Of a stretch of 11,815 nt of DNA, positions 2,587 to 11,815 are shown piece after piece. A model generated the notes under the pieces. It did no database searches. It saw only the letters and a program-made list of their open reading frames with translations, and was not told the DNA's origin. Each line of letters starts with the position of its first letter. The first letter of the stretch is position 1. The stretch comes from Phycisphaerales bacterium (GTDB lineage: Bacteria > Planctomycetota > Phycisphaerae > Phycisphaerales > UBA1924). The DNA lies in contig JAIEQQ010000105.1 of the NCBI GenBank assembly GCA_019747615.1, positions 1 to 11,815 of the forward strand, written 5' to 3'. Made by a program: the position numbers and the translations under genes.

Positions 2587-4032
2587 ATGACGCTCGATCG
2601 ACTGCATATCGCCCCGGCTCCGTCGCAGTGGCTGCCCGCACTGGGATCAGCAGCGATGCGCCCGCCCGAGCTTTCGCCGGACGCCGCGAGATTTCGGGCG
2701 CAGCTCGGTCTGCCCGTTGATCGACCGGTGATCTTCTCCGGCCATCAGGCATCGATCTGGCACGCCGGCATTCTGGCCAAGTACCTCCTGGCGCACGAGG
2801 TCGCCTCGGGCATCGGCGGATGCGCCGCGTGGCTGGTGGTGGACACCGATGCAGAGGACTTCACAACGCTCGCGGTCCCGTCGCGTGACGCCGGCGGCGT
2901 CATCTCGCGCCGCACGCAGCGGATCGCCAGCACCCGCATCGGTGAGCAGATCAACGCCGGCGTTCCGCCCGCCTCGCTCGCGCCATTCGAGACGCCGGCA
3001 AGCACCGACGCCAGCACGGGCATCGCGCCAGTAGACAGCGGCCTTGCGCTCATCTCCGTCGCGATTGAACGCGCACGCCTCATCACCGCCAGCGCCGGCG
3101 AACAGATCGCCAGCGCCACGCTCTCGCTGATCGAGCCGGTCGCGCCGCGCTGCGCCGTGGTCATGGCCAGCCGAATCGGTAGCACCGATCTGTTCCAGCG
3201 CATCGCCATGGACATGGCCCGCTCGCCGGAGCGCTGGGCCCGCGGCTACAACGACGCCATCGCCGGCTCGCCCGATGCGCACCTCACGCCGCTGCGCATC
3301 ACCCCCGCCAGCGCCAGCTCCGCCGGAGTCGTTGAGCTCCCGCTCTGGCACCTGCCGGGCGTGAACCAACCTCGCCAGCGCGTGTACGCCGCCCAGTTGC
3401 CGGCACTCCTGCGCGATGGCGCATGTCTGGCGCCCAAGGCGCTGCTGCTCACCGGCCTGCTGCGTGCCGCCGGCTGCGAGTTGTTCATTCACGGGCTTGG
3501 CGGCGCGGGTGCTGACGGGCTCTCGGGATACGACGCCGCGACGGCGCGTTGGATGGGCGCGATGGGCCTGACGCTGGCCCCAGCAATCTCGTGTAGCGCC
3601 ACGCTCACACTGCCGCTGCTGCCCGGCCCGCGCGTCACGCCCGCCGAGGTGGCGCGATTGCGCTGGAAGGCCCACGCGGCCCGTCACAACCCCGGGCTCG
3701 TCCTGGATGCCCTCGGCGCGCAGCAAAAACTCGAAGCACTCGAGCGACTCAAGCACGCCAGCTCACCACTGACTCGACGCGCCGCGTTCAGCGCCCTGCA
3801 TCAGACACTCGCCGATCACCGCCATCGCGCCGCGCCCGCTCTGGAAGATCTCAACGCCCGCGCAAACGCCGCGGCCCTGCGCGTGTCTCAACAGCAGATC
3901 GCAGGCGACCGCACGTTCCCGTTCCCGCTGCACGACCTCGGCGCACTCCGCGAGCTTCGCGCCCAGATCGCCGCCGCTCTGCGCGACACCGCCGTCGCAG
4001 CAGCGCCCTCGCTCCCCCGCGCAGGGGGTTGA
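2587..4032 (+). CDS. Conserved uncharacterised protein, faintly BshC-like
   Basis: A 481-residue soluble protein with no signal peptide or membrane segment. I cannot name it firmly. N-terminal landmarks are VIFSGHQASIWHAGILAKY (about 49-67, with GHQ at 52-54) and a hydrophobic strand leading into VDTDAEDF (85-92). These resemble the GQQ and EDHDF segments of BshC, the bacillithiol cysteine ligase, but could also recall the HQP start of WbqC-like proteins. A central segment ELFIHGLGGAGAD (298-310) is followed by SATLTLP (337-343); I recall this combination in planctomycete hypothetical proteins. The C-terminal third is Ala/Arg/Leu-rich and probably helical, possibly coiled coil. The start is uncertain: ATG 2587 lacks a clear ribosome binding site and ATG 2656 is an alternative. 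It lies 107 bp after msrB. A thiol-redox role would fit that neighbour, but is only a guess. Confidence 0.7.
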   Translation: MTLDRLHIAPAPSQWLPALGSAAMRPPELSPDAARFRAQLGLPVDRPVIFSGHQASIWHAGILAKYLLAHEVASGIGGCAAWLVVDTDAEDFTTLAVPSRDAGGVISRRTQRIASTRIGEQINAGVPPASLAPFETPASTDASTGIAPVDSGLALISVAIERARLITASAGEQIASATLSLIEPVAPRCAVVMASRIGSTDLFQRIAMDMARSPERWARGYNDAIAGSPDAHLTPLRITPASASSAGVVELPLWHLPGVNQPRQRVYAAQLPALLRDGACLAPKALLLTGLLRAAGCELFIHGLGGAGADGLSGYDAATARWMGAMGLTLAPAISCSATLTLPLLPGPRVTPAEVARLRWKAHAARHNPGLVLDALGAQQKLEALERLKHASSPLTRRAAFSALHQTLADHRHRAAPALEDLNARANAAALRVSQQQIAGDRTFPFPLHDLGALRELRAQIAAALRDTAVAAAPSLPRAGG

Positions 4033-4238
4033 GCAGAGCTGGCGAGTTGTCGAGCCTCAGGCGGACCGCGGCCGGCACCGCTCGCAATCACCACCGGCCC
4101 GTCCGCCGAGACTGCCGCTCACAGAACGTGAACACTCGAGCTTCGATTCTCCAAACCCCGCCGCTTACCCCAATCACCACCGCATTGGCCAGATCACTGC
4201 GCAATCGCCACTTTTCGCGGCGAATCCAACACAATCGG

Positions 4239-4247
4239 TGCTATTCT
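4239..4247 (+). promoter_or_regulatory. Possible extended -10 promoter element upstream of the first exoprotein
   Basis: TGCTATTCT reads as an extended -10 (TGN then TATTCT at 4242-4247), 67 bp upstream of the ATG at 4314. No good -35 box sits 16-18 bp upstream, as is common for extended -10 promoters. The rest of the 281-bp spacer 4033-4313 shows no other feature I can support. This is a weak call by eye. Confidence 0.22.
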
Positions 4248-4313
4248 TGCTTTCCGCATGTCCACGCGAGCAGACGCCACACTGCCGCAGCGCGATCGCG
4301 GGGAACGCCACCT

Positions 4314-6038
4314 ATGACCAGCCGCATCACGCCCGAATCACGCCCGCTCTGCGCGCACCAAGCCCGCTGCGCCATTGCGCTCCTCACGCTGACGTGCGGT
4401 GCACCGGCCATGGCCCAGCTCCAGCGCGGCCCCTTCGCCCCCGGCAGCACAACCGCATTCGTCGTCACCGGCTCGCCCAACCGCTTCATCAGCGTGAACC
4501 TCAACGGGCAGCAAGGCCCGGCGGGCACGTACACACGCGCCAATCTGTCCGTCGATTGGGCACCGGCCAGCAACAACCCCGGCGGCCTCAACGCTCAGTG
4601 GCAGAGCGACGCCCGCATGGCCATCACCTCGCAGGCGTACACAGGGCTCGCGCCCATCGTCGCCTCCACGATCTACTGCGGCGCTCCCAGCGGCCTCCGC
4701 CCGACCACGGCGCTCGACTCGGCCGTCGCCGGCACGATCACCTGGGACAACATCGCCCTCGACACGCCCTTTGTCGCCGATGGAACCGAGCCGCTCTTTC
4801 TCCTGTTCCGCTCCAGCTTCGCCAATGGCGGTGACTCGCTCTGGTCCAACATCAGCGTCACACTCCTGCCTCCGCTGCCGCCCCTGGATTGCCCGCGCAC
4901 CGAGACCGAGCCCAACGACACAAAGCTCACTGCGACCGTGATCTCATCAGACCCCGGCGACTCGGTCTGCGGCGTCTCCTTCGGTGCCGATGAAAGCGGC
5001 ACCGACTTTTCCATCGACTTCGTGAACATCGCCACCGCCCGACACCCCGGCATCCGTCGCCGCCAGGCGCGCCTCATCTCCAACGGCGTGCCGCCGCTGA
5101 TGAACCTCGTCGGTCGGTCGCAGACCGCCGGCGTGCCCGGCTCTGGCGTCGTCAACATCCAGCCGGGTGAGCCCATCGGTGACAACACGCTGGTGACCTG
5201 GTACACACTCGGCACCGCAGAGACGCCAAACGCACGAACCGCGATCGTCGCCATCGCCGGCGATATCGCCACCAGCGACGGCTACAAGCTCGAGATCCTC
5301 AGCGTCGATCCCGTGCAACCCGCGGCCCTCGCCCGAACCGTCCGCCCCGGTGCCGTCACCATCTCCACCGCGGGCACCAGCGCCGCGGACACCGACCTGT
5401 GGATCCTGGACTCCAACTTCGATCTCATCCCCGGCTGGGGCAACGATGATCGCCTCGGCGCCACCGACCTGCAATCCACCCTCACGCGAACGATCGCACC
5501 CGGCACCTACTACCTCGCGATCGGCCAGTTCCCCATGGCCGTCGCCGAGCCGTCACCCTCGGACGATCGCTTCCGTAGCGGCGTACTCACCGATTTCCCC
5601 GGCGTCATGATCTGCGGCGTCGTCTCCGGCCCCGCGCGAGACTTCACCATCACCGATGCCGCGGGCTCATTCGTCACCCCGAGCGCGCCCACGCTCCCGC
5701 ACGAGATCATCTTCTACCGCCTCGACGTCACCAACAGCGGCGCCGCGATCACTCGCTGCAACCCCGCCGACATCGCCAACGACGGCGGCCAGCCCATCAA
5801 CAACCCGCCGGCGCCCGCGGACCCCGAGATCCCCAACAACGGCACGACCGAAGCCGACTACAACGTCTTCTTCGCGAGCTTCTTTGATGCCCTGAATGTG
5901 TGCGATATCGCCGCGGACACCGGAACGCCGCTACCCCCCTTCGGCAGCGGCGGCACCGGCAGCAACGTAAACAACGGCGTGACCGAGAGCGATTACAACC
6001 TCTTCTTCAGCATCTTCTTTGATGGCTGCACGCTCTAA
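4314..6038 (+). CDS. Exported protein with EPND-type beta modules and duplicated dockerin-like C-terminus
   Basis: A 574-residue protein of unknown function, predicted to be secreted. The ATG at 4314 is chosen because it opens a signal peptide: basic start, hydrophobic stretch 19-29, then APAMA with cleavage after Ala34 before QLQRGPF. The frame is open further upstream, but without signal or start evidence. Residues 35-190 form a domain shared with the next gene (GPFAPG, ITWDNIALDTPFVADG). Cys193 and TETEPND (196-202) begin a beta-rich region resembling bacterial pre-peptidase C-terminal modules, including DTDLWILDSNFD and the APGTYYLAI strand. The C-terminus carries two dockerin-like repeats, DIAND...NNGTTEADYNVFF and DIAAD...NNGVTESDYNLFF, with Cys482, Cys530 and Cys572 spaced 48 and 42 apart. 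Acidic residues suggest calcium binding. No enzyme motif was found. It is probably surface or extracellular. Confidence 0.8.
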   Translation: MTSRITPESRPLCAHQARCAIALLTLTCGAPAMAQLQRGPFAPGSTTAFVVTGSPNRFISVNLNGQQGPAGTYTRANLSVDWAPASNNPGGLNAQWQSDARMAITSQAYTGLAPIVASTIYCGAPSGLRPTTALDSAVAGTITWDNIALDTPFVADGTEPLFLLFRSSFANGGDSLWSNISVTLLPPLPPLDCPRTETEPNDTKLTATVISSDPGDSVCGVSFGADESGTDFSIDFVNIATARHPGIRRRQARLISNGVPPLMNLVGRSQTAGVPGSGVVNIQPGEPIGDNTLVTWYTLGTAETPNARTAIVAIAGDIATSDGYKLEILSVDPVQPAALARTVRPGAVTISTAGTSAADTDLWILDSNFDLIPGWGNDDRLGATDLQSTLTRTIAPGTYYLAIGQFPMAVAEPSPSDDRFRSGVLTDFPGVMICGVVSGPARDFTITDAAGSFVTPSAPTLPHEIIFYRLDVTNSGAAITRCNPADIANDGGQPINNPPAPADPEIPNNGTTEADYNVFFASFFDALNVCDIAADTGTPLPPFGSGGTGSNVNNGVTESDYNLFFSIFFDGCTL

Positions 6039-6087
6039 CCCAGAGCCCCCCCACCTCCGTCCACTCCCGCCGGTCGCGCCAGCTCTC

Positions 6088-6121
6088 ATTTGCTATTTGC
6101 CCATTTGCTATTTGCCATTTG
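6088..6121. repeat. ATTTG heptad repeat between the two exoprotein genes
   Basis: Five ATTTG cores start at 6088, 6095, 6103, 6110 and 6117, a period of 7, 8, 7 and 7 bp, with units of the form ATTTGCT/ATTTGCC. It shares its core word with the 8-bp array before trpA at 710-749. It begins 50 bp after the stop of the upstream exoprotein. Confidence 0.8.
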
Positions 6122-6152
6122 CCGCGGCCTCGGCGGCGCGCGTCGACTCCGA

Positions 6153-6176
6153 AGTCCGAGGGGTTCCCCTTGGATT
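6153..6176 (+). terminator. Hairpin downstream of the first exoprotein, possible terminator
   Basis: Arms 6153-6162 and 6167-6176 pair over 10 bp (two G-U pairs) around a four-base loop, with a GGGG/CCCC core. The following TCTTCCCTC is pyrimidine-rich but not a clean U tract, so this is a weak intrinsic terminator candidate, 115 bp after the stop codon at 6038. Confidence 0.35.
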
Positions 6177-6262
6177 CTTCCCTCGATTCTGACCCGCCAG
6201 CGTGGTTTGTTCGCCCGATGGCTGGCATGTCTCGCTTCGCAAAGTACCATCATTCTGGCGTC

Positions 6263-6291
6263 TTGACGTATTCACCGTGGGCCTTGTGTTC
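6263..6291 (+). promoter_or_regulatory. Possible promoter of the second exoprotein
   Basis: TTGACG at 6263-6268 is a near-consensus -35 box. The matching -10 region about 16-17 bp downstream (TGTGTT around 6285-6290) is poor. It lies 30-58 bp before the ATG at 6321. Apart from this, the ATTTG repeat and the hairpin, the 282-bp spacer 6039-6320 holds nothing I can support. Confidence 0.25.
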
Positions 6292-6320
6292 TGCGCCCAG
6301 CACCCTCTCTGGAGTTTGAA

Positions 6321-8303
6321 ATGCGCATCTCATCCACGGCCGCGGCGATCGCCGCCATCCTCGCCCTCGCCGGCGCAGCGTCCGCCCAGTTCACCCCGGG
6401 CCCCTTCGCCGGGCCGTACACCGTGCCGACCAGCGGCACGTTTCAGTCCATCGATCTCAACGGCCCCGCGGCCGTGAACGGCAACTACACCTTCGCGTCG
6501 GTGCAGGCCAACTGGGGCTTTGACGTTGCCAGCACCCAGTTCCCCAACGACATCCGCATGGCGTTGACGAACGCCGCAGTCAATGGTGTGTCCGCGGTCC
6601 CCGGGGCCACGACGCGCTTCTGGAGCGGCTTGAGCACCGGCGGCGGCGCGCCGTCGTTTGCGCTCGGCTCCGCGACGCCCAGCCCGATCACGTGGGATGT
6701 GAATCTTGAGACTCCGTTTGTCGCCAACGGTGCCAATCCGCTGCACATGGCCTTCCGCACCAGCTGGCTCAGCGGCCAGCCGGTCAAGCTCAGCAACATC
6801 ACGATCACACTCTCGACCTCGGTCCCCGGCATCCCCAACGGCACTTGCACCACCGCGTCGGACATCACCGCGACGCTCGCCGGCGCGCTGACGGGCCCGG
6901 ACACCAACACGATCCTGCCGTCGGTCCTGGCGGTCGGCGGCTCGAGCACCGCGATCGGCTTCCCGGTGTTCAGTTGCAACTCGACGGTCACCCGCCCGGT
7001 CTTCTATAAGTTCAACCCGCCGGCGACCGCGCCCTATCGCGTCACGACGTGCACCAGCAACGGCACCATCAACTCGATGGGCAACAACATCATCGGCATC
7101 TTCGAGGAAGGCCCCGGCGGCGCCTGCAACGGCGACCTGACCCAGGTCCTGTGCTCCACCACGACCTGCACCGGCGGCGCGCAGTCGCTGCCGACGGTCC
7201 TCGATTCGAGCAAGACCTACTTCGTCGTCGTCGGTCGCACGGGCACCAGCCTGCTCGGCGCCAATGAGAAGCGCTACCAGCTTCGCGTCGATCGTCTCGC
7301 GCCCCTGCCGGCGTGCACGATGACCGAGACCGAGCCCAACGATTCGAAGACTACCGCCAACGCGGTGACGCTCGCCGCGGGCGGCGTGATCTGCGGAACC
7401 ACCACCGGCGCTTCGGCGTTCAACCCCGTCGGCGATATCAGCTCGTTTGACCACTACAAAGTCCAGCTCCCCACCGCCCCGGGGATCAAGCGTTATCGCC
7501 TGACGCCGAACTCCTTCACGCCGGGCCAGTCGGTCGAACTGCTGGGCGTCTCGCAGAGCGCCGGCGTCATCGGCACGACGCTCTCGGTGCTGCAGAGCAC
7601 CTCGTTCCTGCCCAGCGCGGTGACGCCGAAGTACATCCAGTTCTACGCCTCCGGCGACGCGACGACGGCCGACGCCCGCAGCGTGCAGATCCGCATCGGC
7701 GGCGGGCCGACGACGTCGCTGCCCTACGCGGTGCAGCTCACCAGCGAGGATGTCGTTCCGGCGGCGCTGAGCCGGACGCTCAACCCCGGCAGCATCACGA
7801 TCACGACCATCGGCCAGACTGGCGGCACGCAGGTCGACACCGATCTCTGGATCCTGGATTCGAACTACAACGCCATCGCGAACTTCGGCAACGACGACGC
7901 GACCGGCCCGACGAGCCTCGGCTCTCGCCTGACGCGCACGTTCGCGCCGGGCACGTACTACATGGCCATCAGCAAGTCGAACCTCGCCCTGCGTTTGAGC
8001 TCGCCGACGGACGACAACTATCGCGCCGCCCCGGTGCCGGATTTCACGGGCATCATCGCCTACGCCGCGACCACGCTCTCGACGACGCCGGCGAACGTCG
8101 GCTTCAAGATTACCGACAGCGCCGGCGATGTCACCACCGCGGCCTCTGTCGCCCTCTGGGATGTCGCCTTCTTCAAGCTCGACATCCCCCCCCCCCCCCG
8201 CCCCCCCAGCAAACCCCCCGACAACGCCGACCCCAACCGCGCCCCCCGGCCGCCCAACGGCCTCCCCCGCGGCCCCAACAACGGCGGCCCCCCAGGCGAT
8301 TAA
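6321..8303 (+). CDS. Exported protein, paralog of upstream gene, dockerin-like end interrupted by TAA
   Basis: The open frame gives 660 residues. The start is secure: GGAG (6311-6314) lies six bases before ATG 6321, which opens a signal peptide ending GAASA with cleavage after Ala22 before QFTPGPF. Residues 23-173 match the neighbour's N-terminal domain (GPFAGP, ITWDVNLETPFVANG). Residues 176-331 form an extra beta domain, absent from the neighbour, with several Cys and a YFVVVGRTG strand. MTETEPND (334-341) opens a module parallel to the neighbour's, including DTDLWILDSNYN. From residue 622 the sequence turns into Pro-rich text and stops at TAA 8301-8303, exactly where the paralog has the Tyr of ADYN. 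The same frame then resumes the expected dockerin-like repeat to TGA 8466-8468. The true gene is probably 6321-8468 (715 residues). Function is unknown; it is predicted extracellular. Confidence 0.8.
   Translation: MRISSTAAAIAAILALAGAASAQFTPGPFAGPYTVPTSGTFQSIDLNGPAAVNGNYTFASVQANWGFDVASTQFPNDIRMALTNAAVNGVSAVPGATTRFWSGLSTGGGAPSFALGSATPSPITWDVNLETPFVANGANPLHMAFRTSWLSGQPVKLSNITITLSTSVPGIPNGTCTTASDITATLAGALTGPDTNTILPSVLAVGGSSTAIGFPVFSCNSTVTRPVFYKFNPPATAPYRVTTCTSNGTINSMGNNIIGIFEEGPGGACNGDLTQVLCSTTTCTGGAQSLPTVLDSSKTYFVVVGRTGTSLLGANEKRYQLRVDRLAPLPACTMTETEPNDSKTTANAVTLAAGGVICGTTTGASAFNPVGDISSFDHYKVQLPTAPGIKRYRLTPNSFTPGQSVELLGVSQSAGVIGTTLSVLQSTSFLPSAVTPKYIQFYASGDATTADARSVQIRIGGGPTTSLPYAVQLTSEDVVPAALSRTLNPGSITITTIGQTGGTQVDTDLWILDSNYNAIANFGNDDATGPTSLGSRLTRTFAPGTYYMAISKSNLALRLSSPTDDNYRAAPVPDFTGIIAYAATTLSTTPANVGFKITDSAGDVTTAASVALWDVAFFKLDIPPPPRPPSKPPDNADPNRAPRPPNGLPRGPNNGGPPGD
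8186..8300 (+). other. C-saturated anomalous tract inside the coding region
   Basis: The tract opens with 14 consecutive C (8186-8199), one G, then 7 C (8201-8207), and continues with repeated C5-C6 runs up to the stop codon. In-frame comparison with the neighbour's dockerin-like repeat is ungapped: Arg627 (CGC) falls on conserved Cys482 (TGC), and NNG, the Asp before Tyr, and the following NLFF/NVFF-type block and Cys all keep their spacing. The differences are substitutions, mostly to C, plus apparent C-to-A changes in runs of A (AAA at 8211-8213 and TAA at 8301-8303). The pattern looks like smearing into homopolymers. Confidence 0.8.
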
Positions 8304-8468
8304 AACCTCTTCTTCGCCAACTTCTTCGACTCGCTGCCAGTCTGCGACATCGCCAATGACAACAACTCACCCCTGCCGCCCTTCGGCACACTCACCACCA
8401 ACAACGGCGTCACCGAAGCCGACTACAACCTCTTCTTCGCGATCTTCTTTGATGGCTGCTCGCTGTGA
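8304..8468 (+). pseudogene. Cut-off C-terminal remainder of the second exoprotein (in-frame after TAA)
   Basis: Directly after the TAA, in the same frame, come 54 codons and a TGA. They encode NLFFANFFDSLPVCDIAND and then NNGVTEADYNLFFAIFFDGC-type sequence, matching the last 58 residues of the neighbouring protein almost position for position. No start codon or ribosome binding site serves it, so as the sequence stands it would not be translated. Restoring TAC for TAA would join it to the upstream frame with Cys675 and Cys713 at the expected positions. It is either a genuine nonsense mutation or a sequence error. Confidence 0.8.
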
Positions 8469-8476
8469 GAGGCAAG

Positions 8477-8541
8477 GCACTGGGCATCGGGCACTGGGCA
8501 TCAGTTGATCTGCTGAAGGCTGAAAGCTGACAGCTGATGGC
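8477..8541. repeat. Composite heptad repeat, two families in one register
   Basis: Nine consecutive 7-bp units plus GC: GCACTGG, GCATCGG, GCACTGG, GCATCAG, TTGATCT, GCTGAAG, GCTGAAA, GCTGACA, GCTGATG. The first four belong to a GCAYYGG-like family and the last four to a GCTGANN family, joined by one transitional unit without loss of the 7-bp phase. It begins 9 bp after the TGA at 8466-8468. Confidence 0.85.
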
Positions 8542-8600
8542 TTCCCCGGCAGCCGTCCCGCCTGCCTGCCGCAGACAACCATTCGCGAGAGACGAGATCC

Positions 8601-8628
8601 AAACCCCGGCGCACCCGCGCCGGGGTTT
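8601..8628 (+). terminator. Strong intrinsic terminator
   Basis: A perfect 12-bp stem (AAACCCCGGCGC at 8601-8612 with GCGCCGGGGTTT at 8617-8628) encloses the loop ACCC, and the T run continues to 8630. It lies 133 bp after the exoprotein TGA at 8468 and 72 bp before the tRNA gene, so it most likely ends the exoprotein transcript. The T run is at the + strand 3' side and only three A precede the stem, so it should act mainly on + strand transcripts. Confidence 0.85.
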
Positions 8629-8638
8629 TTCGTTCGAA

Positions 8639-8666
8639 GCTGAAAGCTGACGGCTGAACGCTGAAG
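8639..8666. repeat. GCTGANN heptad repeat upstream of tRNA-Ala
   Basis: Four 7-bp units in register: GCTGAAA, GCTGACG, GCTGAAC, GCTGAAG. They belong to the same family as units 8512-8539, from which they are separated by the terminator, and to the inverted copy after trpB at 643-674. Confidence 0.85.
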
Positions 8667-8700
8667 GCCGCCGACACGCGGCATACGCTTGCCTCCCTTC

Positions 8701-8773
8701 GGGGCGATAGCTCAATTGGTAGAGCACTAGCTTTGCAAGCTAGGGGTTACGAGTTCGAGTCTCGTTCGCTCCA
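8701..8773 (+). tRNA. tRNA-Ala (anticodon UGC)
   Basis: A full cloverleaf can be drawn. The acceptor stem is GGGGCGA (8701-8707) with TCGCTCC (8766-8772) and discriminator A at 8773. The D arm is GCTC/GAGC. The anticodon stem CTAGC/GCTAG (8727-8731, 8739-8743) carries the loop TTTGCAA, with anticodon TGC at 8734-8736. The T arm is ACGAG/CTCGT around TTCGAGT. The third acceptor pair is G-U, the G3:U70 identity element of alanine tRNAs, which confirms the charging specificity. The 3' CCA is not encoded (TTT follows), so it must be added by nucleotidyltransferase. No convincing promoter is visible, because a heptad repeat occupies the -35 area. Confidence 0.97.
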
Positions 8774-8891
8774 TTTGGCCGCGGGCCCACGCCCGGCAGA
8801 CCCCAACCCCACCCTCACCCGCCCTCGCCAGGCCCGTGACTTCGCAGAGCCTCAGTCCCGGCGTCATCACTCGCACAACTCGCGTCCACGC

Positions 8892-10412
8892 TCACTTCGA
8901 CGGCTGGCCCGACGGCTGGCCGGTGGTCTCGATCGCGGTCCCGGGTGTGCTCTGGTTGGGTTGAGCCGCGCCTCCGGCGCCGTCCCAACCGCCGCCGAGG
9001 GCTTTGTAGATCGCGACGTACTGGCGAGCGATCTCGCCCTGCGACTGGGCCTGCGCGTCTTGGAGCTGGAAGAGCTGGCGCTGCGCGTCGAGCACCGCGT
9101 TGAAGTCGGTGAGGCCCTGCTTGTAGAGCTCGCTGGAGAGCTCCACGGCCCGCTGCCCCGCGACCACCGCGTTCGTCAGCGACTCACGACGCGTGCGCTC
9201 ACGCGAGAATGACACCAGCGAATCCTCGACTTCTTGGAACGCGCCGATGACCGCTCGCTCGTACTGCGCGAGCAAGGCCTCGCTGCGGGCGGACTGCGCC
9301 CGGATGTTGGCCCGGATGCGCCCGTAGTCAAAGACGTTCCACGTCAGGCTCGGGCCGACGCCGTAGCTCACGCTGGAGGCATCGAAGAGCGAGGCGAACT
9401 TGCTGGTGTTCCAGCCGACGCTGCCGCCCAGCAGCACGCGCGGGAAGAGATCACCGGTGGCCACGCCGACGCGGGCGGTCTGAGCGGCGATGGCACGCTC
9501 GGACGCTCGCAGATCCGGCCGGCGGCGCAGCAGCTCGCTGGGCAGGCCCGTGTTCAGAGCATCGTTCACGCTGGGGATCACGCCCGGGGCGCTGAGTTCA
9601 TCGACGAGCACGCCGGGGTTACGCCCTAGCAGCACCGCCAGCGCGTGCATCGAGCGCCGCTCGCTGGCCTCAAATGCCGGGATCTCCGAGCGCGTCGTCT
9701 CGACGTTGGCCCGAGCGCGGGCGACATCCAGCTCGCTGGTGAGGCCGGCGCGGAATCGCGAATCGGCCAGCCCCAGCGTGTCCTCCTGGGTTGCGACGTT
9801 GCCGCGTGCGATCGCCAGCCGTCGCTGTGTCGTGCGCAGATCGATGTACGTGCGGGCGACCTCGGAGCTGACGATGACCATCACATCGGCGGCGCTGTAC
9901 TCCGCCGACGCGACCTCGGCCTCCGCGGCCTCCACGCCGCGCGCCACGCGACCGAAGAAGTCCAGCTCCCATGTCGCGTCAAAGCCGGTCTGGAACAGGT
10001 CGTACGAGCTGCCATCGCGGAACGCGGCCCCGCGGGCGGTGCCAGTCGTCGTGCTGTCCTCGCGGCGCGAATACCCCGCGCTCGAGTCGATCGTGGGCAG
10101 CAGGCTCGATCGCGAAATCTGCCGCAGCTCGCGCGCTTCGCGCACGCGAGCCATCGCCTGGCGGAGTTCCAGGTTCCCGGCGCTGGCTCGCTCGACCAGC
10201 GCGTCGAGCTTCGGGTCATTCAGTCGCGTCCACCACTTGCGGAGGTCACCGGCGGTTGCCGCGGGCGACTCGGACCACGCCGTCGGCGAGTCGATCACCG
10301 GCTCGACGTAGTTCGGCCCGACCTTGCAGCCGGCCAGCGTGAGCAGCGCCAGGCACGAGAGCGAGCCGACCAATCCCGGAACGGTCAACACATGAGTCGC
10401 GGATGTTCGCAC
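8892..10412 (-). CDS. Outer-membrane efflux lipoprotein, NodT/OprM type
   Basis: The outer-membrane channel of a tripartite export system: a trimeric beta-barrel with a long periplasmic alpha-barrel that carries drugs or other small molecules out of the cell. The GTG at 10412 is chosen because GGAG (complement of 10421-10424) lies eight bases upstream; a GTG at 10421 in the same frame would add three residues. The protein has 506 residues, close to the family norm of about 460-500. A signal peptide ends in the lipobox LAGC with Cys29, followed by the NodT-typical KVGPNY. Two repeated helical halves follow, with family motifs WELDFFGR, ELLRRRPDLRASE and WNVFDYGRIRANI, and a Gly/Pro/Thr-rich tail. 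It lies 85 bp downstream of the adaptor gene on the same strand, so the two are probably co-transcribed. Its substrate cannot be told. Confidence 0.94.
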   Translation of the reverse strand: MRTSATHVLTVPGLVGSLSCLALLTLAGCKVGPNYVEPVIDSPTAWSESPAATAGDLRKWWTRLNDPKLDALVERASAGNLELRQAMARVREARELRQISRSSLLPTIDSSAGYSRREDSTTTGTARGAAFRDGSSYDLFQTGFDATWELDFFGRVARGVEAAEAEVASAEYSAADVMVIVSSEVARTYIDLRTTQRRLAIARGNVATQEDTLGLADSRFRAGLTSELDVARARANVETTRSEIPAFEASERRSMHALAVLLGRNPGVLVDELSAPGVIPSVNDALNTGLPSELLRRRPDLRASERAIAAQTARVGVATGDLFPRVLLGGSVGWNTSKFASLFDASSVSYGVGPSLTWNVFDYGRIRANIRAQSARSEALLAQYERAVIGAFQEVEDSLVSFSRERTRRESLTNAVVAGQRAVELSSELYKQGLTDFNAVLDAQRQLFQLQDAQAQSQGEIARQYVAIYKALGGGWDGAGGAAQPNQSTPGTAIETTGQPSGQPSK

Positions 10413-10497
10413 GAAGAGCACTCCAAAGAAGCGCGGCTCGCGTTCGCGTGGCCACGGAGAATCACGTTCTTCAACGACGAGGCAAGGCCAACAGTAA

Positions 10498-11646
10498 TCA
10501 GTTCGACGCCGCGGCGGGCGTGGGCGACCCGACGCTCGCCGGTGTTGAGACGCCGATCGGCTCGGCCTCGATCCGCACGTCCACCTGCTGCCCGACGAAC
10601 GCGGGCATCGCCGAGCGTGGGAACGAATAGACCACCTGCAACACGCGCGTGTCCACGCGCTCGGTGCTGTCGCCGGTGAGCGATCGCTTGGGGATCACGA
10701 AGGGCTCGACGCGGACGAAGGTCGTTTCGTCGGTGCGGATCTGCGGGTTGCCGCGCAGCGAGACGCGAGCCTTGGCGCCGGGCTTGATCCGCCAGGCGTC
10801 GTTCTCGTCGACATCGACTCGCACGTGCAGCAGGTCGGTGTTGCCAACGAGCATGGCCGGCGTGGCCAGGAGCCCGGACTGCACATACTCGCCGGCGCGG
10901 GTGTTCTTCTGAAGGACCTCGCCGCTGACCGGTGAACGGACGATGAGCCGCTCGATCTCGGTCTTGGTCGCCTCGACATCGGCCTCGGCCTGCTTCACCA
11001 GGGACTCGGCCTGAGCCACTTGCGCACCGCTGATCTCAAGCTGCGCGCTCCACGCGCCGGCCAGCAACTGATCCAGCGACGATTGCGCTTCCAGCACGCG
11101 CGCTCGCGCCGTGACGACCGCGTTCTCGCGCCGCGTCAGCTCCTCCTGCACGATCGCCCGCTTGTCCGGCACCTCTTGCATGAGGTTCAGGATCTTCTCG
11201 GCGTCCAGAAGCTGCGCCTTGGCCACCTCAATACGCGCCCGCGCCGGGGGGACATCCTCCTTGCGAGGCAGTTGCTTCTGCTGCGCCAGCTCCGCCTTGG
11301 CAATCGCCACCTGACGACGTGACGCCTCCGCTCGCGCTTCGCGGATCACCAGCTCGCTCCGCAGCGAGCGATCATCAACGCGGAAGAGCGGGTCACCCGC
11401 GTTGACACGCGACCCAGCTTCCACGAACACCTCGACCACGATGCCAGGAATGTTCGTGCCGATCGCGATGTTGCGCGTGCTGGCCTCGAGAATCCCCGAG
11501 CCGGCGACCGAATCCGGGAACGGCGATCGCGCCGGCTCCGCCAGAGCCTTGCCCACCGGTCGCTCGGCGCTCTGGCTCATCACGGTGTGGATCGCGAACG
11601 CGAAGCCCGCCACCGCAACCAGCGGCACAATGATCGTTCGAAACAT
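10498..11646 (-). CDS. HlyD/membrane-fusion-family periplasmic adaptor subunit
   Basis: Bridges an inner-membrane pump (RND or ABC type) to an outer-membrane channel. It has 382 residues. The start ATG (11644-11646) is supported by AGGAG (complement of 11654-11658) seven bases upstream. An N-terminal hydrophobic segment (5-20) anchors or exports it. The first lipoyl half is at about 61-91 (NIPGIVVEVFVEAGSRVNAG), followed by a long Ala/Glu/Arg-rich coiled-coil hairpin (about 95-232), the second lipoyl half (ERLIVRSPVSGEVL, 232-245), a beta-barrel segment (VRVDVDENDAWRIKPG, 275-290) and a Pro/Ala tail. The long hairpin and the GAWSAQLEI stretch recall adaptors of ABC exporters more than AcrA, but this is judged from memory. 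It is followed by the outer-membrane channel gene. No pump gene is in the window. Confidence 0.92.
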   Translation of the reverse strand: MFRTIIVPLVAVAGFAFAIHTVMSQSAERPVGKALAEPARSPFPDSVAGSGILEASTRNIAIGTNIPGIVVEVFVEAGSRVNAGDPLFRVDDRSLRSELVIREARAEASRRQVAIAKAELAQQKQLPRKEDVPPARARIEVAKAQLLDAEKILNLMQEVPDKRAIVQEELTRRENAVVTARARVLEAQSSLDQLLAGAWSAQLEISGAQVAQAESLVKQAEADVEATKTEIERLIVRSPVSGEVLQKNTRAGEYVQSGLLATPAMLVGNTDLLHVRVDVDENDAWRIKPGAKARVSLRGNPQIRTDETTFVRVEPFVIPKRSLTGDSTERVDTRVLQVVYSFPRSAMPAFVGQQVDVRIEAEPIGVSTPASVGSPTPAAASN

Positions 11647-11667
11647 GCGAGAACTCCTAGGAAAGTC

Positions 11668-11815
<148 letters not shown>

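Follow-up and report, generated by a model that had tools for sequence, protein, structure and literature searches.

A C-saturated tract and in-frame stop codon in a Phycisphaerales exoprotein gene are best explained as a probable scar of two-channel sequencing

Introduction

When the end of an otherwise ordinary gene dissolves into cytosines and closes with a stop codon, does the tract record a mutation in the organism or an error in its sequence? The question arises in the 11,815-nt stretch of Phycisphaerales DNA analysed here (the window). An open reading frame for an exoprotein, at 6321-8303 on the plus strand, reads as 660 aa in the window and is ended by an in-frame TAA at 8301-8303. Of the 118 bases that lead up to and include this stop (8186-8303, plus strand), 73 are C, 22 are G, 20 are A and 3 are T. 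The window's C-richest 100 nt (66 C) lie inside this tract, a run of 14 C at 8186-8199 forms its left edge, and the longest T-free run of the window (77 nt, 8186-8262) begins at the same base. The frame to the left of the tract is also the frame to the right of the TAA, and read-through continues for 165 bp (8304-8468, plus strand; 54 codons and a TGA at 8466-8468) that encode a second dockerin-like repeat. A preliminary description, made from the sequence alone, had reported a C-saturated tract with an in-frame TAA and a preserved frame, followed by an extra 165 bp. Both observations hold: the same frame resumes cleanly at 8304, and 8304-8468 is the rest of it.

Results

The tract site in the orthologue and other homologues

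A protein search that scored the 7,991 candidates with the most shared words listed 17 relatives. The closest among the matches listed (P0001, 712 aa, 92% protein identity) is encoded without interruption at positions 436-2574 of a metagenome-assembled contig (L001; JALHNK010000070.1, Phycisphaerales Bin_57_2_2_sub), and a sense codon stands there where the window has the TAA. The two contigs are syntenic: window positions 5880-8477, 8604-8865 and 8866-11781 align collinearly, with a DNA identity of about 91%. No match to positions 8000-8470 was found in plasmid records.

Six of the 17 relatives (P0001-P0005 and P0008) were aligned together with a neighbouring paralogue in the window (4029-6038, plus strand; its listed start may be too far upstream), which has an ordinary dockerin-like end. 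All seven sequences carry a dockerin-like repeat at the site of the tract, and Pro-rich text or a stop codon is found there in none of them. The preliminary description had proposed a comparison of orthologues, in which the same Pro-rich text would speak for a real variant; the orthologues show ordinary text, which by that standard argues against one. In the homologues the linker that precedes the repeats is variable in length and contains some Pro, and the linker of the paralogue differs in length from that of the exoprotein. Within 8186-8203 the window exceeds L001 by 9 nt. The read-through product has the length of homologue P0003 (715 aa), not that of P0001. As the closest orthologue has a linker three codons shorter, the earlier statement that length is intact can be upheld only for 8204 and beyond. 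The proposed pairing of R627 with a conserved Cys has to be given up, as the gap-free alignment to the orthologue from 8204 places the first conserved Cys on S630.

The C-terminal double repeat resembles that of the GC-type dockerin domain-anchored proteins (NF041540), a name that relative P0015 bears in NCBI. Where matched, however, the pieces of the window and P0001-P0003 reach between 10.6 and 21 bits (8304-8468, 15.3; the paralogue, 17.2; P0001, P0002 and P0003, 17.4, 10.6 and 21, respectively), and no match to this model was listed for 6321-8303. As all scores fall under the curated cut-off of 29 bits, we do not claim membership in this family.

Density and borders of the changes

Over the 100 nt from 8204 to 8303 the alignment of the window to L001 is gap-free and has 27 mismatches; the upstream part of the gene (6325-8180) has 142 in 1,856 nt, and the downstream part (8304-8460) 14 in 157 nt. 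The mismatch excess in the tract is far above chance: no 100-nt stretch of the upstream gene has more than 18 mismatches, and at codon positions 1 and 2 the tract has 17, whereas the upstream maximum is 7. Mismatches at codon positions 1, 2 and 3 number 9, 8 and 10 in the tract and 23, 16 and 103 upstream, a comparison in which L001 serves as a relative and not as the true sequence, so that some of the third-position changes will be real. The tract has 22 changed codons, of which 17 are non-synonymous; upstream the figure is 33 of 126. Positions 8186-8203, where the lengths differ, were excluded from these counts, which drops three more mismatches at 8199-8201. The borders of the tract are abrupt, with 8160-8185 and 8304-8321 identical to L001. 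Within 8196-8303, 18 mismatches fall in the left half (8196-8249) and 12 in the right (8250-8303), a weak gradient along the supposed read.

The spectrum of changes and the two-channel dye code

Relative to L001, every changed A (7 of 7) and every changed G (10 of 10) in the tract has become C, a joint outcome with a probability of 1.5e-6 under the upstream spectrum; the seven changed T have become A (3), G (3) or C (1). C itself is nearly immune: 3 of its 41 sites are changed, as compared to 24 of the 59 sites that hold another base (Fisher p 1.9e-4). In minus-strand terms, T and C turn into G, A turns into any of T, C and G, and G hardly changes.

We compared all 12 distinct two-channel base codes, so that the code was not hand-picked. 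The best is a minus-strand code with dark G and with A carrying both labels (log-likelihood -13.7); it leads the next code (-26.5) by 12.8 log units, and a model that applies the upstream background to the tract changes reaches -29.9. The winning code equals the two-channel code given for the NextSeq 2000 and MGISEQ-200 in PMC11140927, where C and T have one label each (a different one), A has both and G has none. Loss of label under this code covers 24 of the 27 changes, including all 17 at codon positions 1 and 2, with the proviso that the loss rule lets T turn into any other base, and the seven T changes test the rule only through their split among A, G and C. The remaining three, among them the change that creates the TAA, are gains of signal and not losses; some of these may be true divergence or neighbour effects. 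Outside the tract the code has no such standing: 58 of the 142 upstream mismatches fit it, with no clear preference for any code, and it falls outside the best five for the 15 mismatches that lie in 8304-8468. Models with dark G on the plus strand, or in which everything turns into C, fit the tract worse than minus-strand dark G, as do models that copy the previous base, the next base, or one of the two bases before or after.

Copying of neighbouring bases as an alternative

An alternative explanation is an artefact of another kind, namely dephasing on the plus strand, a context-specific error in which the miscalled base repeats the preceding one. Dephasing after GGC and inverted repeats has been described (PMC3622629), and the tract resembles such Illumina errors in being strand-bound and in lying in GC-rich sequence. 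The preceding base of the orthologue equals the miscalled base in 16 of the 27 tract mismatches, versus 33 of 142 upstream; the following base does so in 9 of 27. A hairpin, which might act as a trigger, is possible in the orthologous stretch, though it is only slightly better than those of shuffled sequences (z -1.5; 18 of 200 shuffles as good). The preliminary description had likewise seen bases replaced by their neighbours, which stands as a count but fares worse as a model: copying from one base back (log-likelihood -23.4) or two back (-21.5) fits the tract less well than minus-strand signal loss, and combining copying with signal loss (-14.2) brings no gain over signal loss alone. Presumably a change to C in a C-rich stretch will often look like copying. 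Dephasing also leaves the near-immunity of C unexplained, and the tract starts with a pure C run and its errors do not grow rightward. We therefore regard dephasing as improbable, even if it is the best placed of the alternatives.

C-saturated tracts in public viral contigs

Three largely overlapping scans of viral contigs, of at least 120 stretches each, yielded at least 234 loci. In the first set together with the window, 56 of 135 listed runs of 14 or more C are internal. A C excess of at least 0.2 occurs in the first set listed on the 3' side in six entries from three sequences (L102, L109 and the window) and on the 5' side in three entries from three sequences (L045, L111 and L102). Since the excess is found on either side of the runs, the mere presence of a C run does not point to a signal-loss artefact. 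Among the at least 234 loci listed and the window, 24 internal tracts are C-saturated, 23 of them besides that of the window; 12 are purer in the 5' half, five in the 3' half, and seven, including the window's, differ by at most 0.05. Several of the internal viral tracts, unlike that of the window, adjoin poly-G or are repeats. The 75 tracts at sequence edges, among the loci listed, have no clear polarity, being purer towards the edge in 13 of 29 and 19 of 46 cases.

A pure C run that ends sharply on the 5' side and passes into a mixed zone on the 3' side, as in the window, is seen in the IMG/VR sequences L102 (1758-1844), L193 (6326-6418), L191 (14401-14453) and L197 (9827-9878, counted on the reverse complement). 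In phage records no relatives were found for the tracts of L102 and L193, and the one match to the L109 tract, of 46 nt, was not usable for a test of the dye code.

Other features of the window

Four tandem arrays of 7-base units are found between larger reading frames or at their edges: CAGCCTT at 643-674 (4.6 copies), CATTTGC at 6087-6123 (5.1 copies), GTCAGTT at 11700-11739 (5.7 copies) and GCAATCG at 11739-11815 (11.0 copies). L001 has the last of these at the corresponding position. Intergenic arrays of this kind may recur in the lineage. The spacer after the exoprotein gene holds a 24-nt direct repeat (8519-8542 and 8639-8662, 88% identical). For the 481-aa reading frame at 2587-4032 on the plus strand, no Pfam family was found at an E-value of 0.1 or better.

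Discussion

Nearly every changed base in the tract is what a fading signal would be miscalled as in two-colour sequencing, and the tract and its stop codon are therefore almost certainly sequencing error. That the tract is an artefact of sequencing and assembly of one kind or another we consider close to certain, and that it stems specifically from loss of two-channel signal on the minus strand appears very likely from the pattern of substitutions. The preference of the preliminary description for an artefact over a mutation process thus receives strong support from the orthologue comparison and from the error spectrum.

The alignments show directly the text of the orthologues, the surplus of changes and their type, and the abrupt borders; the platform, the direction of the read and the assembler's way of joining we infer. 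A two-channel short read, or a few such reads, running right to left on the minus strand, would have lost signal from about 8303. Loss of one or both labels would have produced miscalls, with minus-strand T and C called as G, and A called as T, C or G. Complete loss of signal would have left poly-G at the end of the read, and the C14 run, which is poly-G on the minus strand, may represent this fully dark end. The fading tail would then have entered the consensus and been joined to clean sequence at 8185/8186, with the TAA and the Pro-rich end as by-products of the miscalled tail. The agreement of frame across this join is expected by chance one time in three. Why a consensus should have kept the tail we can only guess; depth may have been low, a gap may have been filled, or an overlap may have been accepted too leniently.

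The components of such a process are known from raw reads. A dark G is called once synthesis stops, which gives poly-G (PMC11887611), and poly-G tails are reported for the NextSeq (PMC11861499); the C14 run, as a minus-strand G14, resembles these. However, the artefact described in these sources belongs to raw reads, whereas here both the tail and about 100 nt of partly decayed signal sit inside an assembled contig and mimic a nonsense mutation. An excess of T>G and A>C at the read level is reported for the NovaSeq 6000 (PMC13218037), likewise a two-colour platform with the same direction of error. In contrast to the tract, with its 27 changes per 100 nt in one place, that excess is scattered and of low rate, and in the tract minus-strand C>G (10) outnumbers T>G (7). 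Among the titles listed in the literature we found none on such a scar inside assembled contigs, although we do not claim that none is in print.

If mutation had instead produced the tract, a real and local process would have changed about one in four of 100 bp, mostly to C, and left a nonsense codon in the strain. Nothing beyond the tract itself favours this explanation. It would require a sharply bounded process that alters A, G and T, hardly touches C and truncates the exoprotein, and its agreement with a dye code foreign to any cell would then be a coincidence. The abrupt borders, the ordinary text in the six aligned homologues and the paralogue, and the still dockerin-like 165 bp past the stop, with 14 mismatches in 157 nt, all argue against it, and we consider it very unlikely. 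Slightly less likely still is a real Pro-rich linker, grown by homopolymer expansion, in a gene whose annotation is otherwise correct. Although the linkers of the homologues vary in length and hold some Pro, and the window has its 9 additional nt there, the tract runs on over the first dockerin-like repeat, which can still be recognised from scattered positions left intact, and none of the six aligned homologues has the Pro-rich text.

Under minus-strand signal loss, the preferred explanation, the best annotation is that of a probably intact gene with an unreliable stretch at 8186-8303. The tract is useful as a warning and perhaps as a method: with one relative, a two-channel dye code could be recovered from an assembled contig, which makes it easier, even where raw reads are missing, to tell artefacts of this type from mutation. 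If some of the C tracts in viral contigs share this cause, then gene catalogues may contain unnoticed stops and Pro-rich or Gly-rich tails that are not real. Biologically the case is ordinary: the organism very probably has an intact exoprotein gene whose C-terminus is of the usual dockerin-like kind.
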